Shown here: one piece after another, positions 5,887 through 33,499 of the stretch
Numbering within the stretch: position 1 is the stretch's first letter
How the letters are laid out: every line of letters starts with the position of its first letter
Source: Siccirubricoccus phaeus
GTDB lineage: Bacteria > Pseudomonadota > Alphaproteobacteria > Acetobacterales > Acetobacteraceae
Assembly: GCF_008360935.1 (NCBI RefSeq)
Contig: NZ_SRXO01000010.1
Location: forward strand, 124,001 to 188,000
Direction of reading: 5' to 3'
DNA: 64,000 nt
Notes under the pieces: model-generated
Told to the model about the DNA's origin: nothing
What the model saw: only the letters and a program-made list of their open reading frames with translations
Database searches by the model: none
Position numbers and translations under genes: made by a program

Positions 5887-5993
5887 CTAGAGCGGGATCG
5901 GTTGAGCTGCGCTCACCCGCCCCGCTCTAGCTTATTGTTCGGTAGCGTGATTCACGGTTTCAGTCGATTCGACCTCAACCGATCACGCTCTAG
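5887..5993 (+). repeat. 107-bp CTAG-bounded element, type A, copy 1
   Basis: Starts and ends with CTAG. The first 44 bp form a hairpin (CTAGAGCGGG pairs with CCCGCTCTAG) ending in an internal CTAG that also opens the 67-bp body. The two outer ends are inverted repeats of about 20 bp with one mismatch. It is 104/107 identical to the copy at 24238-24344. Its last CTAG is shared with the next element. Confidence 0.85.
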
Positions 5994-6096
5994 AGCGGCT
6001 TCACGCTGACTGTGCAGCGCGAAACCGCTCTAGCTTATGGATTGTAGAGCAGATTCACGCCTTCGGGCGATGCCACCCTCCGGCGATCTGTTCTAG
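5990..6096 (+). repeat. 107-bp CTAG-bounded element, type D (diverged from A)
   Basis: Same architecture and exact length as type A: a 44-bp hairpin (CTAGAGCGG / CCGCTCTAG outside, CGCTG / CAGCG inside) and a 67-bp body, CTAG at both ends and between the modules. The body shares GATTCACG and a TCGG.CGAT block with type A but is otherwise diverged. It abuts copy A1 through a shared CTAG at 5990-5993 and ends 4 bases before the stop codon of the receptor gene on the other strand. Confidence 0.75.
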
Positions 6097-6100
6097 AAGG

Positions 6101-7072
6101 TCAGCTGTCAAGCCTGACATTCGCAATCCGGGCGACCTCGCGCCATTTCTCCGTCTCGCTGCGGATGAAGGCGGCGAACTCGGCTGGAGTCCCCGGATCG
6201 GGCGAGCCACCAAGACTTTCCAGGCGCTGCGAGGAGGACGGGTCGCGCAGGATGCGCACCACCTCCGCATTGATCCGGCTGACCAGCGGCCCGGGGGTGG
6301 CGACCGGCGCGACCATGCCGATCCAGCCCACCGCCTCGAACTCGCCCAGCGTCTCGGCCGCGGTCGGCACGTCCGGCAATTGCGGCGCGCGGTTCCGCCC
6401 GGTGATGACAAGGGCCTTCAACCGGCCGTCGCGCACATGCGGCAGCGCGCTCGCCAGGCTGTCGCTGACCAGCGGCAGGGTGCCGCCGAGCAGGTCGGCC
6501 AATGCCGGGCCGGTCCCGCGATAAGGGACGTGCTGCATCCGGATGCCCGCGCGGTGCGCCAGGTATTCCCCCGCCATGTGGCCCGCCGTGCCCGGTCCCG
6601 GCGAGCCGTAGCCCAGCTCGCCCGGCCTTTGCCGTGCCAGGGCCTGGAGTTCGGGCAAGGTATGGGCCGGGAAGTCAGGGCGCGCCACCAGCAGCAGCGG
6701 CATGGTGGCAAGATTGCTGATGGGCGCGAAGTCGCGCAGCACGTCGTAGGAGAGGTTAGGGATGATGGCCGGGTTCACCGCCAGGGTGCCGGAGGAGCCG
6801 ACGACCAGGGTGTACCCATCCCCCGCCGCGCGTGCTCCGGCATCCATGCCCACGGCCCCGGCGCCGCCGCTGCGGTTCTCGACGACGACGCGCTGCGGCC
6901 AGGACTGCGACAGAGCGTCGGCGATGAAGCGCGCGACGATGTCGGTGGAATTCCCCGGCGGAAAGGGCACGATGATGCGCACCGGCCGGGCCGGGTAGGG
7001 CTGGGCACGCGCCACGGCCGGCGCCGCCAGGATGGCGGCCAGCAGCAGCGGCCTGCGGGCAAGACGGAGCAT
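6101..7072 (-). CDS. Bug/TctC-type periplasmic solute receptor
   Basis: Tripartite tricarboxylate transporter receptor-like protein of 323 aa. A signal peptide (MLRLARRPLLLAAILAAPAVARA) leads into YPARPVRIIVPFPPGNSTD, the standard Bug opening, followed by VVENRSGGAGAVGMDAGARA and DGYTLVVGSSG. These proteins bind carboxylates or amides in the periplasm. No TctA/TctB membrane partner is near, as is common for Bug receptors. It is the last gene of a leftward set after two MmgE/PrpD genes (18-base gap), so its ligand is probably a carboxylate handled by those enzymes; this is inference. Confidence 0.9.
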   Translation of the reverse strand: MLRLARRPLLLAAILAAPAVARAQPYPARPVRIIVPFPPGNSTDIVARFIADALSQSWPQRVVVENRSGGAGAVGMDAGARAAGDGYTLVVGSSGTLAVNPAIIPNLSYDVLRDFAPISNLATMPLLLVARPDFPAHTLPELQALARQRPGELGYGSPGPGTAGHMAGEYLAHRAGIRMQHVPYRGTGPALADLLGGTLPLVSDSLASALPHVRDGRLKALVITGRNRAPQLPDVPTAAETLGEFEAVGWIGMVAPVATPGPLVSRINAEVVRILRDPSSSQRLESLGGSPDPGTPAEFAAFIRSETEKWREVARIANVRLDS

Positions 7073-7090
7073 TTTTCTTTCCTCCCGTGC

Positions 7091-8467
7091 TCAGGGCCGC
7101 AGCAGGGCCAGCAGGGCGGCGGTGTCCGCCAGCCGCTCCAGGCCCAGCACGGTCTCGATGCAGCGCGCCGCGGCCGCGTCGGGGATGACGCCGGCTGCAT
7201 TCGCGGTGAATTTCGCGACGATGTCCTCGGTGCCGAGGGGATTGGCCGGCGTGCCGCGCATGTCCACCACCCGGTGGTGCAGCACGCGGCCATCGGTGGT
7301 GCGGATGGTCACGTCGCCGCTCCAGCGCCGGCGGTCGGTGGCGTACTCATCCACGCGGTGGTTGATGCGGGCTCGCAGCGCGGCGATGCGCGGGTCGGCC
7401 AGCGTCGCCTCGGTGTAGCTGCGCTTGTCCAGCCGGCCGGTGACCAGCAGCTCGGCGATGGAATGCTGCAGGCTGAAGCGCGCATGCCAGGGCGTGTTGG
7501 GATGCGCCTTCTCGGCCACCGGCTCGCAGACCAACGGCACCATGTAGTCGGCCACCGCGCACTCCACCGCGGCGATCTCCTCGGCCCGCAGATGATGGCG
7601 CCGCTGCAGCGTCTCGGCCGCGTCGGTGAAGGGCTGGATGTAGTGGCCGTTCGGATAGACCTTGGCGGCGATGCTCAGCAGCTCCCAGCGCTCGCCCAGC
7701 GCGGCGGTCGCGGCCTCCCAGCGGAAGGCGTAGCCCGGCGCCTGGACATGGGCGGGGAAGAAGCCGAAGCGCCCCTCGAACACCACGCCGGGGCCGCTGA
7801 CGCCGTGCCGCGCCAGCGCCAGCGCCTGCAGTGCATCCTGTGCCGCCAGGCCGGCATGCAGCGACTTGCTCTCGCTGCCATCCTCCCACGCCGCCATCAG
7901 CGCTGCGCTCATGCTACCGGCGAGGCCGAGCGCGCTGCCATGTACCGCGGCCGGCTGGCGCTGCAGGCTGGCGAGCGCGGCGACCGCACCAAAGATGCCG
8001 AACACGCCGGTGGGATGGAAGCCGTGGCGATGGAACATGCCGGGTGCGACGCAGGCGAGCCGGCATGCCACCTCATTGCCGAGCGCCACCGCGAGCAGCA
8101 GGTCTCGCCCGGAGCGATGCAGCGCCTCCGCCTGGCCGAGCGCTGCGGCCAGCACGGGGCTGGTGGGATGCACCCCGGTCTCGACATGGCTGTCATCGTA
8201 TTCGAGCACATGCGCTGTCGTGCCATTGACCAGCGCCGCCAGGCCGAGCGGAGCTCGCGCCGCGCTGCCGACGAGCGTCGTGCCACCCTCCCCGTTCTCG
8301 GCCACCGCGGCGAGGACCCGCGCGGCGAGCGTGGTCTCGCTGCCCGCCAGCATGGCGCCGAGGATGTCCAGGATGCGGAGCTTCGTCGCCTGTCGAGCCG
8401 CTTCGGGCAACGCCTCCAAGGTCAGGCCGGCGGCCCATGCGGCCAGGCGGTGCGAAATCATCGTCAT
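7091..8467 (-). CDS. MmgE/PrpD family protein (first paralogue)
   Basis: A 458-aa member of the family that includes 2-methylcitrate dehydratase PrpD, cis-aconitate decarboxylase and iminodisuccinate epimerase. The all-helical N-terminal part starts MISHRLAAWAAGL and carries LRILDILGAMLAG and NGTTAHVLEYDDSHVETGVHPTSP, the active-site region of the family with conserved Asp/His. GFHPTGVFGIFGA is another typical block. The C-terminal part has KVYPNGHYIQPFTDA. Start ATG 8467; an ATG two codons in is also possible. It lies 3 bases after the second paralogue on the same strand. The exact substrate is unknown. Confidence 0.88.
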   Translation of the reverse strand: MTMISHRLAAWAAGLTLEALPEAARQATKLRILDILGAMLAGSETTLAARVLAAVAENGEGGTTLVGSAARAPLGLAALVNGTTAHVLEYDDSHVETGVHPTSPVLAAALGQAEALHRSGRDLLLAVALGNEVACRLACVAPGMFHRHGFHPTGVFGIFGAVAALASLQRQPAAVHGSALGLAGSMSAALMAAWEDGSESKSLHAGLAAQDALQALALARHGVSGPGVVFEGRFGFFPAHVQAPGYAFRWEAATAALGERWELLSIAAKVYPNGHYIQPFTDAAETLQRRHHLRAEEIAAVECAVADYMVPLVCEPVAEKAHPNTPWHARFSLQHSIAELLVTGRLDKRSYTEATLADPRIAALRARINHRVDEYATDRRRWSGDVTIRTTDGRVLHHRVVDMRGTPANPLGTEDIVAKFTANAAGVIPDAAAARCIETVLGLERLADTAALLALLRP

Positions 8468-8470
8468 GGC

Positions 8471-9859
8471 TCAGCGCCCCGCCGCAGCGGTGAAGATGGC
8501 AGCGACCTCGCCGCCCTGCGCCAAGGCCGTGACCGCGCTGCGCAGCGCCTCCGCCTTGCCCTCGGCGGGCGTTCCCCGCAGGCAGGAATGCAACTTGGCC
8601 ATCAGCTGGTCGTCACGCATGTGGTCGTCGCGGCCGTGGAAGTGGATGCTCTCCAGCCGCGTGCCGTCGTCGAGCTCGACCTCGATCCAGCCCTTGTAGC
8701 GCTCGTCGCGCGGCGCATCGGGGTCGATGACGTACTCGACCTTCTGCGCCAGCGCGAGCAGCGCCGGGTTGGCGCGGTTCTCCGCGCTGTAGGCCGAGGC
8801 TTCCAACCGACCGAAGAACAGCGTCTCGGCCACGGTGAAGGGCAGGCTCACACGGCAGTGCCAGTCGGTGCTGGGCCGCTTCTTCTCCGCCGCCGGCTCG
8901 CAGACCACGGGCGTGATCCATTGCGCCGCATGGCAGGTGACGCGGCGGATCCGCTCCGCCCGGGCGCCCCTCGCATGTAGCTCGAGCGCGCAATCCACGA
9001 AGGGGATGCTGACATGCCCTGTCGGATAGGGCTTGATCGCGATGTTGCGGCTCTCCCAGACCTCGCCCAGGGCCGCGGTGGCGCGCGCGTAGTCCAGCCG
9101 GTAGTCGCGATCCTGCACATGGCTCGGGAACAGGCCGAAGCTGCCTTCCAGCACCGCGGCGGGGCCGGAGAAGCCCTTCGCCGCCAGCACCGCGGCGGTG
9201 ATTCCTGCCTGGGAGGCCCAGCCCGGATCGACGATCTGCGCCCAGCTCCCGTCGCGCCAGCACTCATTGCTGCCCGAGGCGAGCGTGCCGGCGATGCCGG
9301 CGGCATGGACCAGGCCGGCGGCATCGAGGCCGAGCAGCCGGCCGGCGACGAAGGCGGCGCCAAAGGCCCCGACGATGCCGGTCGGATGGAACCCGCTGCG
9401 GTGGAATTGCCCCGGCGCCACCGCGCCGATGCGGCAGATCGCCTCATTGCCGAGGGCGATCGCCAGCAGCACCTCGGGCCCCGCGATGCCCCGCCATTCA
9501 GCGAGGGCGAGCGCGGTGGCGGCGGTGGTGCAGGTGCAGTGGATCAGCGTCTCGGTCTGCGAATCATCGAAGGCCAGGGCCGATGCCATGCTGCCATTGG
9601 CGAAGGCGGCGCTGGTCGCGAGCGTACCATCCGGCCCGCCGAGGATGTGGCATGGGCCCGGCGCGCCCATGGCCAGCGCGGCCTCGGCCGCGACCTGGCC
9701 CTGCGGCCGGGCGCCGGCGGCGAGCGCGACGCCGATGACGTTCAGCAGCCGCTGCTCGGTTGCGTGGCGGAGGTCTGCCGGCAGATCCGCAGCGGCGAAT
9801 CCGGCGCACCAGGCCGCCAGGGATTGGGTAATGGTCCGCGCCGGATCCAGCGTGGTCAC
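8471..9859 (-). CDS. MmgE/PrpD family protein (second paralogue)
   Basis: A 462-aa paralogue of the adjacent gene with the same landmarks: SLAAWCAGF near the N terminus, MASALAFDDSQTETLIHCT in the active-site region, GFHPTGIVGAFGA, and KPYPTGHVSIPFVDC. I chose the GTG at 9859 because AGGAGG lies 9 bases upstream and the N terminus then matches the paralogue; ATGs at 9877 and 9889 would place that site inside the gene. In the shared DDSH position this copy has DDSQ, so one conserved His is replaced, hinting at a different substrate or a heteromeric pair. First gene of the leftward operon, divergent from a LysR gene. Confidence 0.87.
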   Translation of the reverse strand: MTTLDPARTITQSLAAWCAGFAAADLPADLRHATEQRLLNVIGVALAAGARPQGQVAAEAALAMGAPGPCHILGGPDGTLATSAAFANGSMASALAFDDSQTETLIHCTCTTAATALALAEWRGIAGPEVLLAIALGNEAICRIGAVAPGQFHRSGFHPTGIVGAFGAAFVAGRLLGLDAAGLVHAAGIAGTLASGSNECWRDGSWAQIVDPGWASQAGITAAVLAAKGFSGPAAVLEGSFGLFPSHVQDRDYRLDYARATAALGEVWESRNIAIKPYPTGHVSIPFVDCALELHARGARAERIRRVTCHAAQWITPVVCEPAAEKKRPSTDWHCRVSLPFTVAETLFFGRLEASAYSAENRANPALLALAQKVEYVIDPDAPRDERYKGWIEVELDDGTRLESIHFHGRDDHMRDDQLMAKLHSCLRGTPAEGKAEALRSAVTALAQGGEVAAIFTAAAGR

Positions 9860-9963
9860 TATGGCGTCCCTCCTCATGGGGAGAGGCATGAGCACCGGAA
9901 CGCTCGTGACTTCCCTGGTCTTACGGCCAGTCTCCGGATTTTGCTGATCGACACAAACTATTA

Positions 9964-9987
9964 TTTCTGATCTTTCTTGATCAGAAA
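9964..9987. promoter_or_regulatory. 9-bp inverted repeat in the divergent LysR/MmgE promoter region
   Basis: TTTCTGATC and GATCAGAAA face each other across a 6-base spacer, in an AT-rich island in otherwise GC-rich DNA, between the divergent starts at 9859 and 10033. Another TGATCA follows at 9991-9996. LysR regulators usually bind such dyads between themselves and a divergent target, so this is the best operator candidate. Binding is inferred. Confidence 0.6.
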
Positions 9988-10032
9988 AAATGATCAATAT
10001 CGGTGACATGCGGCGCCGGGGAGACCAGGAAG

Positions 10033-10950
10033 ATGAACTTCCAGCAGCTCGAAACACTGGTGTGGCTGGCGCGGCTGCGGAACTTCCATGCCGTGGCGGG
10101 CAAGCTGCACACCACGCAGCCCAGCGTCTCCGCACGGCTGCAAAGGTTGGAAGAAGACCTCGGTACGCGTCTGGTGGATCGTGGCCCTCAGGGCGTTGCG
10201 CTGACCGCCGCCGGTCGGGAGTGCCTGATCTATGCGGAGCGGATCCTCGCCTGGCAGGGGAGGATGCGGCAATGCGCCGGCGGCGAGGACCGGTTGCGCG
10301 GCAGGGTCAGTGTTGGCGTGAGCGAGATCGTCGCCTGCACCTGGCTGCCCGACCTCTTGCATCGCCTGGCGAGCCGCCATCCCGAGGTGATCATCGACAC
10401 CCATGTCGATCTGACGCCGCAGCTCGCACGCGGCCTCGAAGAGGGCAGCTTCGACGTTATCCTGGCCGGCTCCTACCGGCTGGCGACAGTGCATCCCACG
10501 CGCTCGCTGGGCGATACGCGCCTGGGCTGGATGGCGGCCCCCGGCGCATTCGCCTTCCGCGAACCGGCTACGCCGGCGGCCCTGCAGCGGATGCCGCTGA
10601 TCACCTGGCCGGAACACTCCGCGATCTACAGTCAGATATCGGACTGGTTCGCCGCCGGTGACGTCTTCCCGGTGCCGCGGCATACCTCGAACTCGGTCGT
10701 TACCCTGGCGCGCCTCGCAACCGCCGGCCTGGGCGTGGCGCTGCTGCCCCTGCAAGTGGTTCAGCGTGAGCTGGACGAAGGTAAACTGGTTCTCGTGCCG
10801 ACCCGGCCGGACTTTCCCAATGTGGAGTACCGAGCCGTCTATGTGGAGCGACAGGGCTCACTCGGAGCGATGGTCGCAGAGGTCGCGGCGGAATGCAGCA
10901 GCTTTACCATGACGACGGGCTTGGGCCCGAGGGTTCGACCTGCAGACTAG
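10033..10950 (+). CDS. LysR-family transcriptional regulator
   Basis: A 305-aa LysR regulator. The winged helix-turn-helix fills residues 1-60 (MNFQQLETLVWLARLRNFH then TTQPSVSARLQRLEEDLG), followed by a periplasmic-binding-like effector domain. Start ATG 10033 with AGGA upstream. It is divergent from the MmgE/MmgE/Bug operon across a 173-base region holding a strong dyad, so it likely controls that operon in response to a small acid. The TAG stop at 10948-10950 lies in a CTAG, and two intergenic repeat elements follow. Confidence 0.92.
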   Translation: MNFQQLETLVWLARLRNFHAVAGKLHTTQPSVSARLQRLEEDLGTRLVDRGPQGVALTAAGRECLIYAERILAWQGRMRQCAGGEDRLRGRVSVGVSEIVACTWLPDLLHRLASRHPEVIIDTHVDLTPQLARGLEEGSFDVILAGSYRLATVHPTRSLGDTRLGWMAAPGAFAFREPATPAALQRMPLITWPEHSAIYSQISDWFAAGDVFPVPRHTSNSVVTLARLATAGLGVALLPLQVVQRELDEGKLVLVPTRPDFPNVEYRAVYVERQGSLGAMVAEVAAECSSFTMTTGLGPRVRPAD

Positions 10951-10978
10951 GGGGCGGGTAGGGTTGGCGGCACCGCCG

Positions 10979-11100
10979 CTGGTGTCCTGCCCGCTGCGTT
11001 CGCCGGATTTCGGGCGAACGCAGCGGACAAGCAGGCCACGGAAAACAAAAGCTGGTGGCCCGATGCCGAAGTCCGCAGGAATTCGGCATCGGACCACTGG
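10979..11100 (+). repeat. Intergenic repeat type C, copy 1
   Basis: A 122-bp unit bounded by CTGG at both ends, closely matching 22161-22281. Shared blocks include CTGGTGTCCTGCCCG, ACGCAGCGGACAAGCAGG, CAAAAGC and GAAGTCCGCAGGA. It contains two dyads (GCGTTCGCC / GGCGAACGC and TGCCGAA / TTCGGCA). Its terminal CTGG is also the first four bases of the next element. Confidence 0.75.
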
Positions 11101-11203
11101 AGCGGTTTCACCGAGCCTGCGCTCGGTGAACCTGCTCTGGCTTTTCGTTCTGTCGCATTTTCCGCGGCGTCCGGCGATTCCGCCGGACTTGAATGTGCTC
11201 TAA
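11097..11203 (-). repeat. 107-bp CTAG-type element, type B, copy 3 (reverse)
   Basis: Aligns end to end with the reverse complement of 32417-32523, at the same 107-bp length: a 44-bp hairpin (GAGCGGTTTCACCGAGC paired with GCTCGGTGAACCTGCTC) and a body containing GTCGCATTTTCC, GTCCGGCGATTCCGCC and GACTTGAA. The terminal tetranucleotides have decayed to CTGG and CTAA. It lies between the LysR gene and the convergent redoxin gene. Confidence 0.75.
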
Positions 11204-11216
11204 CCCTACCCGGCGG

Positions 11217-11876
11217 TCAGGCGGCGTATTTCACGCTGCAGCCATAGGGGCGCGTCACCGCCTGCTGCACCGGCTTGCCCTCGGCCACGGCGCGGAAGGC
11301 GTTGCGGAAATAGGGCGTCGCCTTCTCCAGATCCGCCAGGTTGGTGGAGGCGATGGAATCGATCCCGCCCATGTAGAGCAGCCTGCCATCGGCGCCGATG
11401 ACATACATGTGCGGCGTGGTCTGCGCGCCATAGGCGCGGCCGACATTGCCCTCGGGGTCCAGCAGCACCGCCGTCGGCACCGCCTGGCGGCTGCTGCTCA
11501 GCTCATTCGCCTGGGCCGGGGTGACGAAGCCCTGCTCGCCAGGCGCGGAGGAGATGACGGAAAGCCAGGCCGCGCCTGCTCCCGTCACCTCCCGCTGCAA
11601 GGTCTGCATGTTGCTCGAGCGGTAGTGCTTCTGCACGAAGGGGCATTCATGGTTGGTCCATTCCAGGACCACCAGCTTGCCGCGCAGCGCTTCCAGCGTC
11701 TGGGTCCGGCCATTGCTGTCCTGCGCGGAGAAGGCCGGCGCGGGCTGGCCGATCGCCGGGGCGGCCTGGGCGGGGCGGCCGCGCAGCAGCGCCGGCGCCA
11801 CGGCAAGCCCGGCGCCGCCGAGCAGCAGCGCCCGGCGCCTTGCGGTGAAGGGAAGGCGGGTCGTCGGTGTCGTCAT
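11217..11876 (-). CDS. Redoxin (AhpC/TSA-like) with Tat-type signal
   Basis: A 219-aa exported thioredoxin-fold protein. The N terminus has RRRALLLGGAGLAVAP, a twin-arginine-like signal, and Ala-Gln-Ala as cleavage site. The redoxin core has APAFSAQDSNGRTQTLEAL, LRGKLVVLEWTNHECPFVQKHY (single active Cys, no CxxC) and a cis-Pro region. GGAGG about 7 bases before the ATG at 11876 fixes this start. It follows the DsbD-like gene by 20 bases on the same strand, so it is probably a periplasmic client that DsbD keeps reduced. Peroxidase activity is possible but not shown. Confidence 0.85.
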   Translation of the reverse strand: MTTPTTRLPFTARRRALLLGGAGLAVAPALLRGRPAQAAPAIGQPAPAFSAQDSNGRTQTLEALRGKLVVLEWTNHECPFVQKHYRSSNMQTLQREVTGAGAAWLSVISSAPGEQGFVTPAQANELSSSRQAVPTAVLLDPEGNVGRAYGAQTTPHMYVIGADGRLLYMGGIDSIASTNLADLEKATPYFRNAFRAVAEGKPVQQAVTRPYGCSVKYAA

Positions 11877-11896
11877 CGGTGATCCTCCGGCTGCGG

Positions 11897-14017: not shown

Positions 14018-14102
14018 CGCGGGATCCTCCTCCATCCGGGGCAGGGCGGCAGCCCTGCGTATCTGGCGTCGCAGCCATGCGTTTGCACCGCGGCAGGGAC
14101 GT

Positions 14103-14129
14103 ATATGCCCCATATGCCCAGCGTATGGG
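14103..14129. promoter_or_regulatory. Repeated ATATGCCC motif upstream of the DsbD-like gene
   Basis: ATATGCCC occurs at 14103-14110 and again at 14112-14119, and CCCATA / TATGGG form an inverted repeat (14109-14114 and 14124-14129). The group lies 86-112 bases upstream of the DsbD-like start, in AT-rich sequence. It may be an operator for that operon; no regulator is adjacent, so the binding factor is unknown. Confidence 0.35.
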
Positions 14130-15800: not shown

Positions 15801-15837
15801 AAGGCGGATAGCCCGCGCGGGACCGGTCTCTCCATGC

Positions 15838-20694: not shown

Positions 20695-22101
20695 ATGAGC
20701 TCGACTGCACTCGATGCAGCAGGCGCACGCGCGCCCGATATCACGCCACCGCTCACCCCCGGCGGCCCGCTGGAGGCGAAGCACATGCGCAGCGCCGCCT
20801 ACCGCAACGCCGCACAGCAGGGCAAGCTGACCAGCACCCATTGGCACATCGCCTGGGCCAATGGGCTGGGCTGGGGGTTCGACGGCATGGACGGCGCGAT
20901 CTTCGCGCTGGTCGCGCCGATGGTGATGCAGGAATTCGCCGTCACCCTGCCGGAGTACCGCAGCGGCGTGCAGATCGCCATGCTGTTCGGCATCATCGGC
21001 CTCTATCTCTGGCCCTGGCTGGCGGACCAGTTCGGTCGGCGGACGCTGCTCGCCATCAACATCGCGATGTTCTCGCTGATGATGCCGCTGGTGGCGCTCT
21101 CCCCGAACTGGGGCTTCTTCGTCGCCGCCTATGCCATCGTCCGCTTCGCGCTGAACGGCGAATGGGCGATCGGCTCCATGCTGGTGGCGGAGACCTGGCC
21201 GGCAAGGCTGCGCGGCATGATCGTCAGCGCGGACCGCTCCGCCTGGGGCGTCGGTGCTGCCCTCGCCGGGACCATCACCGCGGTGGTGGTGCAGAATTGG
21301 GGCTGGCGCGCGGCCTTCGTGCTGCCTGCGGTGGTGGCGCTGCTGGCGATCTATGTCCGGCTGCTCTGTCCCGAATCGCCCTATTGGGTGCGGACCATGG
21401 ACCGCAAGCGGCGCATCCGGGCCGCGCTGCAGACCGGCCAGGGCATCAGCGAGGAGGACCGCCACTGGATCGACAAGGCGGAGAAGGTCGGCATCCGCCA
21501 GCTCTTCCTGCCCGACATGCGACGCGGCACCCTGCTCGCCACCTTCGTCGCCTGCACCAACGTCATCGCCTTCTCCACCGTCGGCCTCTGGATGCCGCTC
21601 TTCCTGAAGGAAGCGCATGGCTGGTCGGCGGCGGAATATGGCAGCTTCTACGTCGCCTGGGGATTGATCGGCGTGGTCGGCATCATCGGCGCCGGCTGGA
21701 TCATCGACAAATTCGGCCGCCGCCTCGGCTTCGTGCTGATGCTGGTGGAAGGGGCGGTGTTCCTCACCCTCTGGACCTATACCAACGACAACACGCTGCT
21801 CTGGGTCTATGGCCTGCTGTGGAGCATCGGCTTCCTCGGCGTCTGGGGACCGGCGACGACCTATACGGCGGAGATGTACCCGACGCGCATCCGCGGCGTC
21901 GGCAATGGCTTCTCCTGGGCGCTGGCCTTCTTCGTCGGCTATGTGCTGTGGCCCTTCGTCTCGGTCTGGATCCGCGAGGCGACCGGCAGCTTCCAGCTCG
22001 CCTTCCTGCTCATCCCCGTGGTGATGCTCGGCCAGGCCGCCGTGGTCTGGTGGTGGAGCCCGGAGAATGCCGGGAAGGATCTGGACGGCATCCATGTCTA
22101 G
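20695..22101 (+). CDS. MFS transporter
   Basis: A 468-aa major facilitator of twelve membrane segments in two halves with a cytoplasmic loop between. It shows DQFGRRTLLAINIAMF after segment 2 (the MFS motif A region), EWAIGSMLVAETWPARLRGM, and the C-half repeat DKFGRRLGFVL. EMYPTRIRGVGNG is the pattern of sugar/organic-acid porters of the SHS/AAHS type. The ATG at 20695 is preceded by GGGAGA; the frame is open earlier but not membrane-like. The substrate is likely an organic acid but not established. The TAG stop codon (22099-22101) is part of the CTAG that opens the following repeat. Confidence 0.87.
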   Translation: MSSTALDAAGARAPDITPPLTPGGPLEAKHMRSAAYRNAAQQGKLTSTHWHIAWANGLGWGFDGMDGAIFALVAPMVMQEFAVTLPEYRSGVQIAMLFGIIGLYLWPWLADQFGRRTLLAINIAMFSLMMPLVALSPNWGFFVAAYAIVRFALNGEWAIGSMLVAETWPARLRGMIVSADRSAWGVGAALAGTITAVVVQNWGWRAAFVLPAVVALLAIYVRLLCPESPYWVRTMDRKRRIRAALQTGQGISEEDRHWIDKAEKVGIRQLFLPDMRRGTLLATFVACTNVIAFSTVGLWMPLFLKEAHGWSAAEYGSFYVAWGLIGVVGIIGAGWIIDKFGRRLGFVLMLVEGAVFLTLWTYTNDNTLLWVYGLLWSIGFLGVWGPATTYTAEMYPTRIRGVGNGFSWALAFFVGYVLWPFVSVWIREATGSFQLAFLLIPVVMLGQAAVVWWWSPENAGKDLDGIHV

Positions 22102-22321
22102 AGCGCGATCGGTCGAGGCCGATCGAGCCGGTGCCGTGAAGCACGTGATCAAGCAATGAGCTGGTGTCCTGCCCGTGAAGTTCGCTGGATTTCCGGCAAA
22201 CGCAGCGGACAAGCAGGCCACTGAAACAAAAGCCAGCGGCCCGAGAACGAAGTCCGCAGGACTTCGGAATCGGGACACTGGAGCGGGAAGAGTGAGCGAA
22301 GCTCGACCGATCCCGCTCCAG
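22098..22321 (-). repeat. Type A element (reverse) split by a type C insertion
   Basis: 22098-22164 matches the 67-bp body of type A in reverse complement, and 22278-22321 matches its 44-bp hairpin module. Removing the 117 bases between (type C with one border tetranucleotide) leaves exactly 107 bp. The outer ends are CTAG and CCAG. The split falls at the CTAG that joins the two modules in the intact copies. Confidence 0.8.
22161..22281 (+). repeat. Intergenic repeat type C, copy 2, nested in type A
   Basis: A 121-bp unit bounded by CTGG at both ends, homologous to 10979-11100. The flanking CTGG pair looks like a duplicated target tetranucleotide (CTAG in intact type A copies) that has since mutated to CTGG. 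Confidence 0.78.
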
Positions 22322-23688: not shown

Positions 23689-24844
23689 TCAGCCGCCCGG
23701 CGGGCCCCGCAGCGACCACAGCACGGCAACGCCGAGCCCATAGCAGACCAGCGCCGCCAGCGAGTCCCAGCCCATGCACGGGATCGTGCGGTCGCGCCGC
23801 TCGATGACGCCGGCCATGAAGATGACGGTCAGCACGATCCCGAGCAGCGCGCCGAAGGCGGAGAAGGCGCCGACCTGCATCAGCACCGGCTCGCCCGGCG
23901 CCAGGACGTCGATCAGGAAGAGCAGCGCGGCGTTGAACAAATTGGTGCCGAAGACGTCGCCGATCGCCATCTCGTAGCGCCGCAGCCGCACCGCGCCGAC
24001 CATGGCGCTGATCTCCGGCAGGGAGGTGGCGACCGCCAGCAGCGGGGCGCCGAAGAAGGCCGAGCCAAGGCCGGTCTTCGCCGCCGCCGCCGCGCCGGTC
24101 TCGCTCAGCAGATAGCCGGCGGCCAGGATGAGCAGGGCGAGCAAGGCGAGGCGGCGCAGCAGGCCGCCCAGGGAAATGCCCGCCGTCGCCTCACCTTTCG
24201 GCGCCGGCGGCTCGGCCGCCTTGGCCTGCTGTGCCTTCTAGAGCGGGATCGGTTGAGCTGCGCTCACCCGCCCCGCTCTAGCTCATTGTTCGGTCGCGTG
24301 ATTCACGGTTTCGGTCGATTCGACCTCAACCGATCACGCTCTAGGGCGTCCGGCCCTCATAGCCGGAGACGATGGCGATGGCGGCGAAATAGCCCAGCAG
24401 CAGCACCCCGTTCCACAGGCCGAAGCCGGCCATGGCGATGTCGCCCGCGGTGATGGCGCCGGCCACCAGCGCCAGCAGGATGACGTTCAGCGCCCCCTGC
24501 AGCAGCGCGACCGGATCCACCACGACCGAGGTCAGCGCGCTGCGGCCGATCAGCGCATCGGCCAGGGCCAGCAGCGCCACCTGCGCCGCGACGCTGCCGA
24601 GCAGGGTGTTGACCGCCAGCGCCGCCTCGCCCTCCAGCGCCGCGGTGACGGAGACGGCGACCTCCGGCAGGGAGGTGATGCCGCCGAGCAGCAGCATGCC
24701 GGCGAAGCCCTGCCCCATGCCGGTGCGCTCGCTGACTGCATCGACGATCCGGGCGAGGCGCGCGCCCGCCCCCTAGACCACCGCGGCGGCGCCGGCGAAG
24801 GCGGCAGCGAGGAGCTAGAGCGGCCAGGACTGGAAATCCGGCAT
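23689..24844 (-). pseudogene. Broken Ca2+/Na+ antiporter (CaCA family)
   Basis: Reading from the ATG at 24844, the frame gives a CaCA N-terminal half (MPDFQSWPL then LLAAAFAGAAAVV then GAGARLARIVDA) but is interrupted by in-frame TAG codons at about 24815 and 24773. GGITSLPEVAVS, the first cation-binding alpha-repeat motif, follows. The first half ends in a TAG at 24341-24343 inside a 107-bp repeat. The second half resumes after the repeat, with AAEPPAPKGE of the central loop and VATSLPEISAMVGAV, the second alpha repeat, ending at 23689. Both halves together are the size of a normal 330-370-aa antiporter. It lies 6 bases downstream of the oxidase operon. Confidence 0.85.
24238..24344 (+). repeat. 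107-bp CTAG-bounded element, type A, copy 2, inside the antiporter gene
   Basis: 104/107 identical to 5887-5993. CTAG at 24238-24241, 24278-24281 (between hairpin and body) and 24341-24344. If one CTAG is counted as target duplication, the inserted length is 103 bases, and removing it puts the two antiporter halves back in the same frame, although a TAG remains at the junction. Confidence 0.85.
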
Positions 24845-24850
24845 GGCGGC

Positions 24851-25222
24851 TCAGCGGCAGCTATGCAGGAGGAGCACCGGCACCGCCTCCCACAGGATGG
24901 CGAGCGCGGCCAGCAGCGCGGTGGCGAGGGTGAGCCAGGCGAGGAAGCGCGGCGCGTCCTCGCCCGCCTCCGCCGCCAGGCTGCCGTCGAGCCGCCGCCA
25001 GGCGCGCCACCCGACCAGGCCGACCGCCAGCAGCGCGGCCAGGCTGGCGCCCAGCACCAGCGCCGGCACCGCCGGCAGGCCGAGCAGCGCGGCATCCGCG
25101 AAGCCGCGCTCGCAGGCCAGGGCATGCGCGCCATAGATCAGCGTGAAATGCCCGGCCCAGACCAGCAGCGCCGCCAGCGCACCGGTGATGGCGGAGAAGC
25201 CGGGGGCGCGCGCCCGCATCAT
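24851..25222 (-). CDS. Small four-helix membrane protein of the oxidase operon
   Basis: A 123-aa protein with about three to four hydrophobic helices: FSAITGALAALLVWAGHFT, LPAVPALVLGASLAALLAV, and LATALLAALAILWEAVPVLL. Its start (ATG at 25222) overlaps the stop of the subunit I-III gene as ATGA, so it is translationally coupled. His in the first helix and a lone C-terminal Cys are visible, but no known metal motif. Proteins in this position are usually unannotated parts of caa3 oxidase loci; an accessory or small-subunit role is inferred. Confidence 0.65.
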   Translation of the reverse strand: MMRARAPGFSAITGALAALLVWAGHFTLIYGAHALACERGFADAALLGLPAVPALVLGASLAALLAVGLVGWRAWRRLDGSLAAEAGEDAPRFLAWLTLATALLAALAILWEAVPVLLLHSCR

Positions 25223-27786: not shown

Positions 27787-28703
27787 CGCAGGCTCTCCAG
27801 CCAGGCGGCCAGGGCGCGCAGCTCCTTCCCGTCCAGCACCGTGTTGAAGGCGGGCATGGCATTGCCCGGCTTGATCTCCTGCGGCCCGGCGATCCAGCCG
27901 GCGAGCGTCGCCTGATGGTTGTCGAGCGTGCCGGCGGCGAGGCTTCGCCGCTCGCCCAGCAGGGTCAGGTCCGGCCCGCTGCGCCCCGCCCAGGGCGTGC
28001 CGTGGATGGCGTGGCAGGCGCCGCAGCCGGCCCGGCCGAAGGCCTGCCAGCCCAGGGCGAGGGTGGGATCCGCCGGCGCCGCCACCGGCACCTTATGGCG
28101 CGCGACCCAGGCGGCGAAGGCGCTCTCCTCCTCCGCGATCACCAGCATGGCCATCAGCGCATGCTGGGTGCCGCAGAATTCGGCGCATTGCCCGCGCAGC
28201 ACGCCCGGCCGGTCCAGGCTGAAGCGCAGGCTGGTCACCCTGCCCGGGATCATGTCCCGCTTGCCGTGCAGGGCGGGCACCCAGAAGCTGTGGATCACGT
28301 CGCCGCTGTCCAGCAGCAGCTCGATCCGGCGGCCGACCGGCACCCGGATCTCATTGGCCGTGGTGATCCCTTGCGCCGGGTAGCGTACCTCCCACCAATA
28401 TTGCCGGCCGGTCACCTCGATGCGCAGCGCCGGCTCCCTGCCGCCGGCGCCGAGCGCTGCGGCGACGCCCAGCACATGCAGCAGCAGCGCGCTCAGCACC
28501 GCTACCGGAAAGGCGACGCCGCCCGCCAGGATGGCGCGGCGCGCGCCCAGCCGCCGCCGCACGCCCTCGCCGCCACCCAGGGCCAGCAGCAGCGCCAGCA
28601 TGACCAGCAGGAAGATGGCGCCGCCGCCGAGGAAGAGCAGCCAGGCCAGCTCGGCGATCCGCGCCGCCTCCGGCCCCATGGGCGAAAAGACGGAATGCTG
28701 CAT
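27783..28703 (-). CDS. coxB: Cytochrome c oxidase subunit II with fused cytochrome c
   Basis: A 306-aa caa3-type subunit II. Two N-terminal membrane helices precede a cupredoxin domain with the CuA ligands in GQCAEFCGTQHALM near residue 172 and the upstream His in SGDVIHSFWVPALHGK. A C-terminal cytochrome c domain carries CGACHAIHG near residue 226, with Met in GNAMPAFN as likely sixth ligand. It passes electrons from cytochrome c to CuA and then to subunit I. Start ATG 28703 overlaps the stop of the CtaG gene as ATGA. The frame is open upstream but only as an antisense-like shadow of that gene. Confidence 0.93.
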   Translation of the reverse strand: MQHSVFSPMGPEAARIAELAWLLFLGGGAIFLLVMLALLLALGGGEGVRRRLGARRAILAGGVAFPVAVLSALLLHVLGVAAALGAGGREPALRIEVTGRQYWWEVRYPAQGITTANEIRVPVGRRIELLLDSGDVIHSFWVPALHGKRDMIPGRVTSLRFSLDRPGVLRGQCAEFCGTQHALMAMLVIAEEESAFAAWVARHKVPVAAPADPTLALGWQAFGRAGCGACHAIHGTPWAGRSGPDLTLLGERRSLAAGTLDNHQATLAGWIAGPQEIKPGNAMPAFNTVLDGKELRALAAWLESLR

Positions 28704-29440
28704 CAGCCGGCAGGGGTCGGGGCGGCGCCGCGCCGCAGCGCGAGGCCGAGCCCGGCCAGGGCGAGCGCCGCGAAGAGCAGCCCGCCCGGCACCCACATCA
28801 GCAGGCCGCCAAGCTGCTGGTCCTCGAGCGGTGAAAGCCCCCAGGGCGCGGTGACGCCGGCCGCATGCACCGCGAGGAAGAGCGGCCGCGGCGCCAGGGT
28901 CAGCAGGGCGCCGAGCAGCCCCATCTGCACCGCCGTCGCCAGGGCGGCGAGCGCCGCCGCATCCGGCCGCGGCGCGGCGACCCGCCACAGCGCCGCCCAG
29001 AGCCAGAGGGCAGTGCCGAACAGCGTGGCATGCATCGCCCAATAGGTCGTGTCGCTGGCGAAGCTGGCGGCATAGGGGCCCGGCAGGTGCCAGGCCCAGA
29101 GCGCCAGGGCGAAGCCGGCAGCGGCGGCGCCGAGTCCCGGCGGGCGGCCGGCACTGCCCCAGGCGCCAAAGGCGAGCAGCGGCGCCGCCACAAGGCTGAG
29201 CAGCATGTGCTGCCCGATCCGGGCCGAGAACAGCGCCACCGAGAGGTTGCAGAGCGGCGACACCAGGGCGAGGGCCAGCACCAGCCAGCCCAGGGCGGCG
29301 GCGCCCAGCCGCGCCCCGCCCGGCGCCCGCCACAGCGCCGCGGCGCCGCAGAGGCCGAGCGCGCCGATCAGCAGGGGGTCGAGCTGCCAGGCCAGGGCGC
29401 CCGGCACCGGCGGCGTGCCGCAATAGGGAATGCTCGGCAT
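28703..29440 (-). CDS. CtaG-type (caa3_CtaG) oxidase assembly protein
   Basis: A 245-aa polytopic protein of the caa3_CtaG family, about six to seven helices, with conserved His-bearing helices (ARIGQHMLLSLVAAPLLAFG, LWAWHLPGPYAASF, YWAMHATLFGTALW). It is thought to help copper or subunit assembly of caa3 oxidases; that role is family knowledge. Start ATG 29440; the gene lies between the lipoprotein cytochrome (77-base gap) and coxB, with which it overlaps. Confidence 0.88.
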   Translation of the reverse strand: MPSIPYCGTPPVPGALAWQLDPLLIGALGLCGAAALWRAPGGARLGAAALGWLVLALALVSPLCNLSVALFSARIGQHMLLSLVAAPLLAFGAWGSAGRPPGLGAAAAGFALALWAWHLPGPYAASFASDTTYWAMHATLFGTALWLWAALWRVAAPRPDAAALAALATAVQMGLLGALLTLAPRPLFLAVHAAGVTAPWGLSPLEDQQLGGLLMWVPGGLLFAALALAGLGLALRRGAAPTPAG

Positions 29441-29517
29441 CTCAGGCGCTCCCGGTCGGCGCTCTCGCTCCGCCGGGTCTAACCGCCGGCACCGGGGCGG
29501 GTTGCCTGCCCGGCCGC

Positions 29518-29889
29518 CTATTGCAGGCGGTAGAGATAGGCGGCGACGTCGCGCAGCTCGCCCTCGGTCAGCGCGAAGCCCGGCATGGCGGTGTCCGGCG
29601 TCATGGCAGGCGCCTCGCGGATCCAGCGGATCAGCAGCGGCGCGCGGTTGGGGAATTGGCCGGCGATGTAGCCGCGCCGGGCGAAGCCGGCGAGCGGCGG
29701 CCCGACCCGCCCGCGCGCGCCGCGCAGGCCGGGGATCAGGTGACAGGCGCCGCAGCCCTCCCGCCGCATCACCTGCAGCCCGGCGGCCGGGTCGCCCTCC
29801 ACCAGCATGCGCCGGTCGCCGACATCGCTGTCCTCGCAGCCGGCGAGCAGCGCGAGCAGCAGCAGCGCGAAGCGGCGGCGCGGCCGCAT
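29518..29889 (-). CDS. Lipoprotein c-type cytochrome
   Basis: A 123-aa protein. The N terminus MRPRRRFALLLLALLAGC is a lipobox signal (LLAGC), so it should be lipid-anchored on the periplasmic side. One heme-binding motif, CGACH, sits near residue 48 (REGCGACHLIPGLRG), and MTPDTAMPGF near residue 95 supplies the Met ligand. Likely an electron donor to the caa3 oxidase encoded downstream. Its ATG overlaps the stop of the triheme gene as ATGA. Confidence 0.9.
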   Translation of the reverse strand: MRPRRRFALLLLALLAGCEDSDVGDRRMLVEGDPAAGLQVMRREGCGACHLIPGLRGARGRVGPPLAGFARRGYIAGQFPNRAPLLIRWIREAPAMTPDTAMPGFALTEGELRDVAAYLYRLQ

Positions 29890-31223
29890 CAGCGGGAGGC
29901 CGCCAGCGGCGGGTCCGCCAGGGTGGCGGGCTGCGCGGCGTACCAGGCGGCCACGGCGCGGATCTCCGCCGGCGACAGGGGCCAGAGCGCCTCGCGCGCC
30001 GGCGGGCGGCGCGGATCGACGCCCACGGCGAGCGCCATGAGGCGGGCGGAGGGTGCCTCATACTCGCCGCCGCGTATGCCGCGCATCCAGAGGGCAAGCT
30101 GATCGACCAGGTAGCCCGGCTGCTGGCCGGCCAGCCGGGGGAAGCCGGGGTTCACGCCCCCCGGCGCCGGGCCGTGACAGCCGGCACAGGCGGCGACGCG
30201 GCGCTCGGGCAGCCCCTCCAGCGCAATGCGGCGGCCAAGCGCCAGCATGGCGGGGTCGGCCGGCGGGGCAGGGGGCGCCGGGTCAGGCGGCTGGGCGGCG
30301 TAATGCCGCGCCAGCAGCCGCATCTCCGCTTCATCCAGCTCGGCCGCCACGGGCTGCATGATGCCGCTGGGCCGGGTGCCGAGGGCGTAGGCCTTCAGCG
30401 CCTCATACAGATAGGTCTCGGTCTGGCCCTGCAGGCGCGGGAAGGCGCCTTCCGGCCCGCCGCCGCCGCTGGTGCCGTGGCAGCGGCGGCAGGCGGCGAT
30501 GCCGCCCCCGACCGGACCGTTGCGCAGCAGCAATTCCAGCCCCTCGGCCGCCGCCGTGGTACTGCCCGCCGCCTCGCCATAGGCCAGGCGCTGGTATTCG
30601 GCCAGCTCCAGCCCGGGCAGGCGGAGCAGGAAGGCGACCATGGCCCAGACCTCGTCCTCCCGGTCCGGCGCCACCCAGGCGGGCATGCCGGTATATTTGA
30701 TGCCGTGCTGGACGATCCAGAACAGCTCGGCCGGGCGCCAATCGGCGATCCGCGGCGCCAGGTAGGGCGGTTCCGGCAGCATGCGCCGGGTGATCGGGTT
30801 GCGGGCCTGGCCCGGGGCGCCATGGCACGGGGCGCAGCCGCCCTGGTAATGGCCGGCGCCGCGGCGGATCAGCGCCGGGTCGTCCAGATTGTCCGGAACC
30901 TCGATGCCCATGGTGTGGGTGCGGACCGATTGCTGCAACCCGAAGGCAAGGAGGTAGCGGAAGGCCGGGTAGTGCCCGGCGGTGGCGGCGACGCTGTAGA
31001 GGCCCGACCAGGCGAAGAGCAGCGCGCCGGCGCAGGCGGTGGCGAGGAGGCCCAGCACCAGCCGCCAGTGCTGCAGCACATGCTCGACCAGATCGGCCGC
31101 GTTCGCGTGCAGGCCGGCGATCAGGGCGTGCAGGCGCCCGCGCTTCTGCTCCGGCCGTCCGGTCGGGCGCGGCGCGTCCGGCGTCGCAGCGGTCGCCGCC
31201 TCCTCCGGCCTGCTCCTTCCCAT
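29889..31223 (-). CDS. Membrane-anchored triheme cytochrome c
   Basis: A 444-aa protein with a single N-terminal membrane helix after a cytosolic Arg-rich segment (about residues 45-70, LVLGLLATACAGALLFAW). Three cytochrome c domains follow: CAPCH near residue 130, CRRCH near 244 and CAGCH near 346. Middle and last domains resemble cytochrome c4-type repeats (HGTSGGGG..., HGPAPGGVNPGFPRLAGQQPGYL). The architecture, a membrane-anchored multi-domain cytochrome ahead of a caa3 oxidase, suggests a relay from the quinol side or from alcohol dehydrogenases to the oxidase; this is inferred. First gene of the operon. I chose ATG 31223 (GGAG upstream) over GTG 31229. Confidence 0.9.
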   Translation of the reverse strand: MGRSRPEEAATAATPDAPRPTGRPEQKRGRLHALIAGLHANAADLVEHVLQHWRLVLGLLATACAGALLFAWSGLYSVAATAGHYPAFRYLLAFGLQQSVRTHTMGIEVPDNLDDPALIRRGAGHYQGGCAPCHGAPGQARNPITRRMLPEPPYLAPRIADWRPAELFWIVQHGIKYTGMPAWVAPDREDEVWAMVAFLLRLPGLELAEYQRLAYGEAAGSTTAAAEGLELLLRNGPVGGGIAACRRCHGTSGGGGPEGAFPRLQGQTETYLYEALKAYALGTRPSGIMQPVAAELDEAEMRLLARHYAAQPPDPAPPAPPADPAMLALGRRIALEGLPERRVAACAGCHGPAPGGVNPGFPRLAGQQPGYLVDQLALWMRGIRGGEYEAPSARLMALAVGVDPRRPPAREALWPLSPAEIRAVAAWYAAQPATLADPPLAASR

Positions 31224-31377
31224 GCCCACTCCGCCCCGGCTTCGTCAGGCGGAGCGCAGCCGCCTGCCCGTGGTTGCGCCTGCCGTGAGGGCAAGGCGCG
31301 GCGCCGCTGCCGCAAAGCCGGCCGGCCCGCACGGCGTTGTCCGGGCATCACCACGACCCGGACAAGGACCAGCACGC

Positions 31378-32319
31378 ATGCAGACCATGAAGGCGATCCG
31401 CATCCACGCCTTCGGCGGGCCGGAGGTGCTGGTGCCGGAGGAGCTCCCCATCCCGCAGGCGCAGGATGACGAGGTCGTGATCCGGGTGCTCGCCGCCAGC
31501 GTCAACCCGGTGGACTACAAGACCCGCGCCGGCCGCTACCCGGCGGTGAAGCCGGCGGATCTGCCGGTCGTGCTCGGCCGCGATGTCTGCGGCGTCATCG
31601 AGAGTTGCGGCACGCGGGCGCATAACGCGCTGCGCCAGGGCGACCCCATCCATGCGCTGCTGGGCCGGGACCGCGGCGGCTATGCCGAATATGTGGTCGT
31701 GAAGGCCACCGAGGGGACGGCACCGCCGCGGAACCTGGACCCTATCCAGGCCGCCGCCCTGCCGCTGGCCGGGCTGACCGCCTGGCAGGGCCTGTTCGAC
31801 CAGGGCGGGCTGCGGCAGGGTCAGCGGGTGCTGATCCATGGCGGCGCCGGCGGCGTCGGCCATTTCGCCGTGCAATTCGCCAAGGCCTGCGGCGCCTACG
31901 TCGCCACCACCGTCTCCGGCAAGGATCTCGATTTCGTCCGCGGCTTCGGTGCCGACCAGGCCATCGACTACAAGGAAGAGCGCTTCGAGGCGGCGGTGCG
32001 CGACATGGACCTTGTCTTCGACCTCATCGCGGGCGAGACCCAGGACCGCTCCTGGGCGGTGCTGAAGCCGGGCGGCATCCTCGTCTCCACCCTCGGCCCG
32101 CCCGATGCGGCGAAGGCCCGGCAGCATGGCATGCGCGGCGCCGGCTACATGGCGCAGCCGAACGCGGCGCAGTTGCGGGAGATCGACGGGCTGGTCGAGG
32201 CGGGGAAGGTGCGGCCGGCGGTCGAACGGGTCTTTCCCCTGGCCGAGGTGGCCGAGGCGCATCGCTTCCTCGAAACCAGCCATCCCCACGGCAAGACCGT
32301 GCTGCGCGTCGCCGCCTAG
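31378..32319 (+). CDS. NADPH:quinone oxidoreductase-like medium-chain dehydrogenase
   Basis: A 313-aa zinc-less MDR protein of the quinone oxidoreductase type: MKAIRIHAFGGPEVLVPEEL at the start, then AASVNPVDYKTRAGRYP and the nucleotide-binding GQRVLIHGGAGGVGHFAVQ near residue 155. It reduces quinones or enones with NADPH; the substrate is not evident. The start at 31378 has AAGGA upstream; an ATG three codons in is also possible. Divergent from the oxidase operon. Its TAG stop (32317-32319) is inside the CTAG that opens a repeat element. Confidence 0.88.
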   Translation: MQTMKAIRIHAFGGPEVLVPEELPIPQAQDDEVVIRVLAASVNPVDYKTRAGRYPAVKPADLPVVLGRDVCGVIESCGTRAHNALRQGDPIHALLGRDRGGYAEYVVVKATEGTAPPRNLDPIQAAALPLAGLTAWQGLFDQGGLRQGQRVLIHGGAGGVGHFAVQFAKACGAYVATTVSGKDLDFVRGFGADQAIDYKEERFEAAVRDMDLVFDLIAGETQDRSWAVLKPGGILVSTLGPPDAAKARQHGMRGAGYMAQPNAAQLREIDGLVEAGKVRPAVERVFPLAEVAEAHRFLETSHPHGKTVLRVAA

Positions 32320-32420
32320 AGCGGCTTCAAATCCGGCGGATACGCGGACGGTCCGGAAACGCGACCAAGGGCGCGCGGGAGCGGGTTCACCCGTGCGTGG
32401 CACGGGCGAACCCGCGCTAG
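32316..32420 (-). repeat. CTAG-bounded element, type B, copy 1 (105 bp)
   Basis: CTAG at both ends. Body first (TTCAAATCCGGCGGATACGC, GGAAACGCGACC), then a hairpin (GAGCGGGTTCACCCGTGC with GCACGGGCGAACCCGC). Homologous to the next copy and to 11097-11203. It supplies the stop codon of the upstream gene and shares its last CTAG with the next element. Confidence 0.8.
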
Positions 32421-32523
32421 AGCATTTTCAAGTCTGGCGGAATCACCGGACGACTCGAAAAATGCGACCAGACAAAGGGCTGGAGCGGGTTCGCCGAGCG
32501 CAGGCGAGGTGAAACCGCTCTAG
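32417..32523 (-). repeat. CTAG-bounded element, type B, copy 2 (107 bp)
   Basis: A 67-bp body (TTTTCAAGTCTGGCGGAATC and GAAAAATGCGACC) and a 44-bp hairpin (CTGGAGCGG / CCGCTCTAG outside). CTAG at 32417-32420 is shared with copy 1; CTAG at 32520-32523 supplies the stop codon of the gene on the other strand. The two copies together make up the whole gap between two convergent genes. Confidence 0.82.
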
Positions 32524-33491: not shown

Positions 33492-33499
33492 CTTCGCCC

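Follow-up and report, generated by a model that had tools for sequence, protein, structure and literature searches.

A family of short repeated elements is described here from a 64,000-nucleotide stretch of the genome of Siccirubricoccus phaeus (NCBI RefSeq assembly GCF_008360935.1, contig NZ_SRXO01000010.1, positions 124,001 to 188,000 of the forward strand; hereafter, the window). Seven intergenic units of 105–107 bp had been marked there by an initial annotation made from the letters alone, and all seven are present, with CTAG or a near-CTAG at their ends and at the internal joint. They belong to a real, abundant and mobile family, whose place is with the double-palindrome repeats of alphaproteobacteria such as the CcrM-associated intergenic repeats (CIR) of Caulobacter. 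We consider it probable, at roughly three chances in four, that the units are non-autonomous miniature transposons (hereafter, MITEs) of the Tc1/mariner-IS630 kind, which duplicate TA and prefer CTAG as their target. Miniature elements served by an unseen IS630-like transposase, or else a REP-like structured family, had already been conjectured, and the first idea is supported by end-base statistics, nested insertions, the ends of IS630 elements and a patchy occupancy between species. The target logic at stop codons and the reach of the family across its class are the new parts of the picture.

Each unit opens with a 44-bp hairpin (CTAGAGC...GCTCTAG); a linker some 10 bases long leads from it to a second hairpin, which ends in GCTCTAG. 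The division into a 44-bp hairpin and a 67-bp body with a common CTAG, as first annotated, is found in all seven units; the body is itself the second hairpin behind its linker, which is T-rich in most types. By eye, the terminal inverted repeats of type A agree at 16 of 17 bases, and those of type D just at GAGC and a few further bases. The six uninterrupted units fold more stably than their shuffles (z −3.3 to −6.6). Units of a second, CTAGTGTCC-type family (hereafter, family II) are also seen in the window, one of them inside an A unit. These measure 121–122 bp and comprise a 49-bp hairpin and a 76/77-bp body with CTGG/CTAG ends, the hairpin being followed by a T-rich linker similar to that of family I.

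CTAG is scarce in the window, with 17 occurrences against 77 expected from dinucleotide shuffles, and CTAGAGC is commoner than expected (13 versus 3.6, with 13 reached in 0 of 100 shuffles). Throughout the genome (G000; 6.55 Mb in 54 contigs) the pattern CTAGAGC-N20..50-GCTCTAG occurs 182 times, compared with 8 for a reversed-pattern control. A search of the same genome with the A unit gave 253 candidates, the best 40 of which are all copies at 99–100% identity; 12 of these 40, including the unit at 24238–24344, are identical over all 107 bp. Short, gene-less and present in many near-identical copies at unrelated sites, the units have the properties by which MITEs are recognized. An A-unit search of plasmid records returned no match.

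A more detailed set of 1.243 Mb comprises the window and 1.18 Mb of further sequence (C1, C12 and C2:1-100000). The spacing from CTAG to CTAG within it peaks at 40 and at 63 (36 times each), corresponding to the two modules. An ungapped scan for hairpin (h) and body (b) modules identified 36 Ah, 37 Ab, 27 Dh, 30 Db, 11 Bh and 9 Bb in family I, together with 28 IIh and 30 IIb in family II, and these group into 89 arrays. Apparently solo modules were left uncounted, many being, by eye, units whose partner has decayed below threshold. The covariance model R1 returned 116 rows at E ≤0.001, with 79 of at least 40 bits; among the other 37, 24 span just part of the model and are largely opposite-strand echoes. 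Short palindromes with TTAG/CTAG or CTGG ends, of neither family, lie beside units at G000:C1:252766-252809 and around G000:C1:209236.

The limits of the mobile piece are indicated by the outermost bases of type A. From 45 copies collected in the 1.243 Mb and among the best genome matches, the 43 with at most three internal mismatches were kept. The last G differs in 8 of them and the first C in 2, versus an internal mean of 0.0078 per site, corresponding to a variability about 24-fold (Fisher p 3.6e-9) and about 6-fold that of internal bases, respectively; in the 19 copies free of internal mismatches, the last base still differs in 6 and the first in 1. Because the outer bases vary more than the internal ones, this C and G are probably letters of the host, with TA duplicated. 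The same test adds nothing for type D (outer bases differing in 1 and 0 of 20 copies). Moreover, units are found nested exactly at the internal CTAG of other units: family II within A (window 22098–22321) and within B (C1:587918), D within family II (C12:347955) and A within D (L024). Tandem units have one CTAG in common. The target-site duplication is thus taken to be TA from type A end-base statistics and nested insertions, rather than from strains before and after an insertion.

Among the 178 outer ends of the 89 arrays, 109 keep TA, as CTAG (93), CTAA (9), TTAG (5) or CTAC (2). The target is probably CTAG as a rule, sometimes CTAA or TTAG, and rarely CTAC or CTAT. Where the initial annotation had seen decay of CTAG, this holds for CTGG and CCAG, which do look decayed; CTAA, and also TTAG, is better read as an alternative target. 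Decayed outer ends in the 1.243 Mb are mostly CCAG (20) and CTGG (18), against 93 CTAG. Both lie in the direction of decay expected of Vsr-type short-patch repair, which could also help to explain the rarity of CTAG.

A candidate partner is found among IS630 insertion sequences, for which loci were identified by PF13358 in G000 (2, one a remnant), in G001 (10), in G002 (12) and in G020 (21). One subgroup, 1.03–1.08 kb when complete, has ends of the form TA-GAGC...GCTC-TA within CTAG, TTAG or CTAA. Such GAGC-ended elements at TA are present in G000, G001, G020, G106, G054, G116 and others, and one such end was found in G002; some other IS630 loci in these genomes carry different end repeats. 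The subgroup resembles the units in its ends, in their sequence context and in having TA on both sides, and differs in its length and transposase gene and in that its ends, by eye, form no 44-bp palindrome. Positions 5–17 of 20 IS630 ends fit a matrix made from 42 distinct MITE ends (Mann-Whitney p 1.4e-13), with 17 of the 20 falling in the top 5% of 13,402 genomic GAGC 17-mers and the others at 0.37, 0.064 and 0.051. Because these genomic 17-mers have a higher G+C content and near-copies within one genome contribute some of the ends, each IS630 end was also shuffled; the 19 distinct ends stand at z 10.1 with respect to their own shuffles (0/5000). A close match is the 1076-bp IS630 element of locus L387, in G116, a genome of another genus; its two end repeats are identical and, once past TA, share 19 of 20 bases with the arm of the D hairpin. 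Overall, the likeness of MITE and IS630 ends is close for type D and amounts to a general motif for other types. For the IS630-like transposase with matching ends that had been suggested as a check, this GAGC-ended subgroup is the candidate. In G001, an IS630 element with CTAGTGCA ends (L067, 925–2068) is perhaps of the kind that serves family II units.

As judged from these ends, an IS630 transposase would act on the units in trans. In the proposed arrangement, C-TA-[GAGC...GCTC]-TA-G, the mobile piece would be the 103-bp GAGC...GCTC; the outer C and G of each "CTAG" would be target letters of the host, TA alone would be duplicated, and each end of the unit would form the arm of a hairpin. 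Since the inner end of the 44-bp GAGC...GCTC palindrome recreates CTAG, a unit would offer targets at both ends and in its middle, and new units landing in these could give rise to the tandem and nested mosaics. Insertion at a stop codon (xxC-TAG) would be harmless, and retained, because TAG is left intact.

Three genomes represent the genus (G000, G001 and G002). Exact hairpins number 26 in G001, mostly of other types, and none in G002; G001 also has A-like copies at 82–88% and family II-like copies at 80–83% identity. At the site of the window unit that begins at 22098, no unit is present in G001 or G002, where the orthologous gene has TGA as its stop. Two junctions were tried for clean empty sites between species, of which this kind of reading was possible at one, the intergenic region of the other being too diverged. 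The proposed comparison of occupied and empty sites thus covers repeats and, between species, a single gene end. Copies fixed in position in all relatives, with no empty sites and no matching transposase ends, had been named as the picture that would make mobility unlikely, and it is not the picture seen.

The conservation of structure was assessed with diverse units from 40 fetched places in relatives. These yielded 37 complete units of 104–108 bp with differing stems and 10 hairpins without a recognized far end; a T-rich, TTTGTTTT-like linker is present in most, not all, of the 37. An alignment of 33 units (hereafter, A1) combines five of the seven window units with 28 of the 37, and its members come from G000, G001, G017, G019, G020, G021 and G022. 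The first hairpin is 92% paired in A1, versus 72% after shuffling, with 99 double-changed cells (37.6 in shuffles) and a covariation score of 0.454 (0.126 in shuffles; slid controls ≤0.085). The slid control weighs most, because related sequences can exceed shuffles without any structure. For 23 of the 33 units, the folding z-score of the body region is below −2. The observation that types keep their lengths and hairpin while the sequence differs is therefore borne out by covariation of the first hairpin across units from seven genomes. By eye, units L160, L162, L163 and L166 of G020 have exchanged hairpin and body types among themselves, and one hairpin is a hybrid of two types, so that modules seem to recombine.

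The family extends well beyond the genus. In a screen of 40 genomes the exact hairpin pattern matches 14, own genome included, and clearly exceeds the reversed control in G000 (176 versus 3), G001 (26 versus 2) and G020 (89 versus 6); in several of the 14 it is no commoner than the control. Model building and a search of own genome and relatives had been proposed earlier, and the search with R1, whose E-values are rough, revealed a large family. Within the window's family, R1 finds matches in 81 of 120 genomes and in 68 of 102 genera (per-genome counts of 32 meaning at least 32), or 74 of 113 when the seven source genomes, which match by construction, are set aside. Within the class, at E 1e-6, matches are seen in 35 of 289 genomes and 25 family groups (34 of 288 without own genome); 12 of the 35 have one match each, and some of these may be chance. 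In a small control sample of 150 kb from E. coli, Thiodictyon and Novosphingobium, the last itself an alphaproteobacterium, there was no match up to E 1.

Named genomes were reached through a Caulobacter protein search and scanned with R1 at E 0.01, 150 candidates being scored for each C. vibrioides genome. C. vibrioides OR37 gave 116 matches, at least 10 places being counted on both strands, so that places are fewer; a C. vibrioides metagenome-assembled genome (MAG) gave 50, two other Caulobacter genomes 8 and 5, two Phenylobacterium 3 and 5, and C. segnis FS 0. On the S. meliloti replicons there are 10 matches on pSymB (best E 6e-8) and one on pSymA (E 1e-5); of four pSym units read, three begin with CTAGAGC and one with TTAGAGC. 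Three OR37 units were read; their first bases are CTAGAGC or TTAGAGC, and GATTC lies in their second loop.

Several observations weigh against an IS630-driven MITE origin. In the one GAGC-ended IS630 locus of G000, the conserved stretches are divided between two reading frames, and two frame switches are required; since a copy in G106 needs one switch, the own copy may be dead. Its ends resemble type A loosely, by eye. No PF13358 match was found in C. vibrioides OR37, the C. vibrioides MAG or G022, all of which are rich in units. Across the 120 genomes the association is weak (PF13358 in 46 of 81 element-bearing versus 17 of 39 other genomes, p 0.24); among genomes with at least 20 matches it is present in 26 of 39, versus 37 of 81 (p 0.034), leaving 13 of the 39 without. 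G002 lacks exact hairpins although it carries an IS630 element with a GAGC end of this kind, and G116, which carries the D-matching element, has no R1 matches (two 120-genome sets being taken as identical, as handles and tallies agree). The occupied and empty sites come from repeats and a single gene end, not from strains of one species, and the number of hairpin-1 pairs changed on both sides (9 versus 8.1 in shuffles, 74/500) is not above chance. Multi-copy insertion sequences are often lost from draft assemblies. Genomes rich in elements but without IS630 may have lost the donor after a burst, or it may be missing from the drafts.

The same absence from OR37, the richest named genome searched for PF13358, could conceivably point to another TA-duplicating enzyme, for example of the IS5/IS427 type, moving the same MITEs, with the GAGC common to IS630 being ancient or convergent. 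Consistent with this, 107 of the 109 TA-keeping outer ends are YTAR, the target reported for IS711. However, the agreement between IS630 and MITE ends extends beyond GAGC. One IS5-type profile, PF01609, searched in three genomes, gave 0 matches in OR37, 3 in G407 and 5 in G022, and none of these eight loci is flanked by a TAGAGC...GCTCTA pair. We regard a different enzyme as unlikely.

The placement of the units bears on whether they are kept for a function. Gene calls were made with a simple script rather than a standard gene finder (934 genes in the 1.243 Mb), and an array was counted as intergenic when overlapping a called gene by less than half. All 89 arrays are intergenic, although 47 of 235 free CTAG sites are coding. 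In 30 of the 89 (34%), the neighbouring gene has a TAG or TAA stop that includes the TA at an array end. Stop-codon CTAGs number 25 within elements and 44 free, and CTAG, rare in the genome, is often found at a stop: 44 of its 188 free non-coding sites (23%) outside elements are stops. The excess of arrays is modest with respect to these (p 0.018) and clear with respect to free non-coding YTAR sites, of which 72 of 490 (15%) are stops (p 6e-6). Special targeting of stop codons was considered and set aside, being mostly explained by the supply of CTAG targets there. If MITE insertion with this target is correct, the placement at gene ends is explained without a selected function, since stop codons often serve as the target and are restored on insertion.

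Retention for a folded RNA or DNA function, either as terminators composed of the first hairpin and its T-rich linker or as carriers of CcrM (GANTC) sites, would account for the T-rich linker in most units of other genera, for hairpin covariation and for the enrichment of arrays in convergent gaps (35 of 89 versus 21% expected by intergenic length, p 1e-4). It would also fit the density of GANTC, which per kb reaches 10.4 within elements, compared with 2.3 in the remaining intergenic sequence and 1.1 overall. Against this, just one orientation is terminator-like, and the side facing the stop codon is the hairpin in 16 cases and the body in 14 (11 and 12 in family I alone); the lack of bias speaks against selection as terminators, a function suggested by the T-run after the first hairpin and set aside on this ground. 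Furthermore, near-identical copies and nested insertion imply recent movement, and GANTC is found at either usual body position in just 20 of 33 diverse units, and anywhere in just 8 of the 20 units that were read in named genomes. A retained function thus appears improbable as the basis of the family. Spread of REP/BIME-like palindromes by a RAYT (HUH) transposase, which short tetranucleotide-bounded hairpins in arrays might call to mind, is very improbable, since the unit ends match IS630 and a defined two-ended 103-bp unit, TA duplication and self-insertion do not, on general knowledge, suggest single-strand movement of the IS200/IS605 type.

With the units read as IS630-type MITEs, known repeat families offer close comparisons. 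No named family with this layout had been recognized at first, but CIR has it. According to a 2007 review by Delihas (PMC2229807), CIR, described by Chen and Shapiro in 2003 from Caulobacter and found in other alphaproteobacteria, are about 110 bp long, with two arms, a linker and GANTC in the terminal loop; they have TA at their termini, are not within genes and have no usual inverted repeats, and that text gives the duplication as unknown, leaves mobility open and calls for more information. A second source describes CIR as strictly intergenic and pneumococcal repeats as inserting into one another (PMC10969869). In size, two arms with linker, TA termini and intergenic location the window family agrees with these descriptions, and types A and B also carry GANTC in the terminal loop (31 of the 37 A bodies and 7 of the 9 B bodies have it there, at position 40, as do 2 of the 30 D bodies). 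Type D differs in having it in a bulge (position 23, 25 of 30 bodies), and GANTC is absent from the three units that were read in the C. vibrioides MAG. We therefore call the family CIR-like rather than CIR, as the GANTC criterion is mixed and the likeness is to descriptions, not to the CIR1-4 sequences.

In mechanism, RUP of Streptococcus pneumoniae is closest. It is described in three papers (PMC2229807, PMC10969869, PMC3049150) as 107 bp long and mostly intergenic, with IS630-Spn1-like ends and insertion at TA, and also as A+T-rich, with end repeats that pair with each other in one fold. Compared by description only, it has in common with the window family its length, TA insertion, IS630-like ends and clusters with self-insertion, and differs in its A+T-richness and in lacking the two-arm layout. 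There is good evidence that the window family works like IS630 MITEs such as RUP, and an IS630 mechanism may also lie behind CIR-like repeats elsewhere. RIME of rhizobia and Bru-RS1/2 of Brucella are palindromic repeats of a layout similar to CIR. They resemble the window family as palindromic intergenic repeats of alphaproteobacteria of about the same size (that of RIME from general knowledge), and the pSym matches are not equated with published RIME. Bru-RS is given as 103–105 bp (PMC2267715), and IS711 as inserting in Bru-RS1 with TA duplication at YTAR (PMC3163539).

More tentatively, and with the odds somewhat against it, one double-hairpin, IS630-mobilized superfamily across much of the class could underlie CIR, probably RIME and Bru-RS, and the window families. 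It would persist because CTAG, its target, often coincides in a G+C-rich genome with a stop codon that insertion restores, and because of the fresh targets that each unit brings; units that keep GANTC in the second hairpin would move under CcrM methylation, tied to the cell cycle. This reading is held less likely because of the GANTC count in named-genome units given above. A literature search covering titles and the beginnings of abstracts, with most subscription journals outside its coverage, found nothing linking CIR-like repeats to IS630 or to stop-codon insertion. Should the proposed link hold, the mechanism, target and partner transposase of CIR-like repeats would become directly testable, mobility of CIR being left open in PMC2229807. 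A covariance model of this kind would moreover permit such units to be annotated in bulk.

The features of the window are summarized in Table 1. The first two units stand in tandem, with CTAG 5990–5993 common to both, and no separate plus-strand R1 match is listed for the second, probably because of its 4-base overlap with its neighbour. The most decayed of the seven is 32316–32420 (R1 25.7 bits, E 3e-5). Its CTAG provides the TAG stop (32317–32319) of a zinc-dehydrogenase gene (31378–32319), and that of 32417–32523 the stop (32520–32522) of a minus-strand gene (32520–33503); with the two stops listed in the table, four genes end in a codon made by the CTAG of a unit.

Table 1. Repeat units and associated stop codons in the window (z, fold z-score against shuffles; bits, R1 score).
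Feature	Position	Strand	Remarks
A-type unit	5887–5993	+	hairpin 5887–5930, body 5927–5993; z −6.6; 87.6 bits
D-type unit	5990–6096	+	hairpin 5990–6033, body 6030–6096; z −5.6
Family II unit, CTGG-ended	10979–11100	.	directly adjoins B unit 11097–11203
B-type unit, ends CTGG / CTAA	11097–11203	+	z −5.6 (other strand folded); 72.9 bits
A-type unit split at internal CTAG by family II unit	22098–22321	-	R1 match
TAG stop codon of MFS transporter gene (20695–22101)	22099–22101	+	made by first CTAG of unit 22098
Family II unit within internal CTAG of split A unit	22161–22281	.	CTGG at both ends
A-type unit	24238–24344	+	z −6.1; 89.1 bits
TAG stop codon of gene 24341–24718 (Na_Ca_ex match)	24341–24343	-	last CTAG of unit 24238
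B-like unit, 105 bp, decayed	32316–32420	-	z −3.3
B-type unit, tandem with 32316–32420	32417–32523	-	z −4.3 (other strand folded); 95.4 bits

An Rfam scan of the window at gathering scores returned nothing but a 6S RNA gene (RF00013, 73.4 bits) at 3910–4064 on the plus strand. Two further repeats were seen: a tandem pair of 106 nt at 35075–35293, 87% identical at a spacing of 113 and, unlike the units, without CTAG, and a 300-nt direct repeat at 56742–57434, 80% identical at a spacing of 393.

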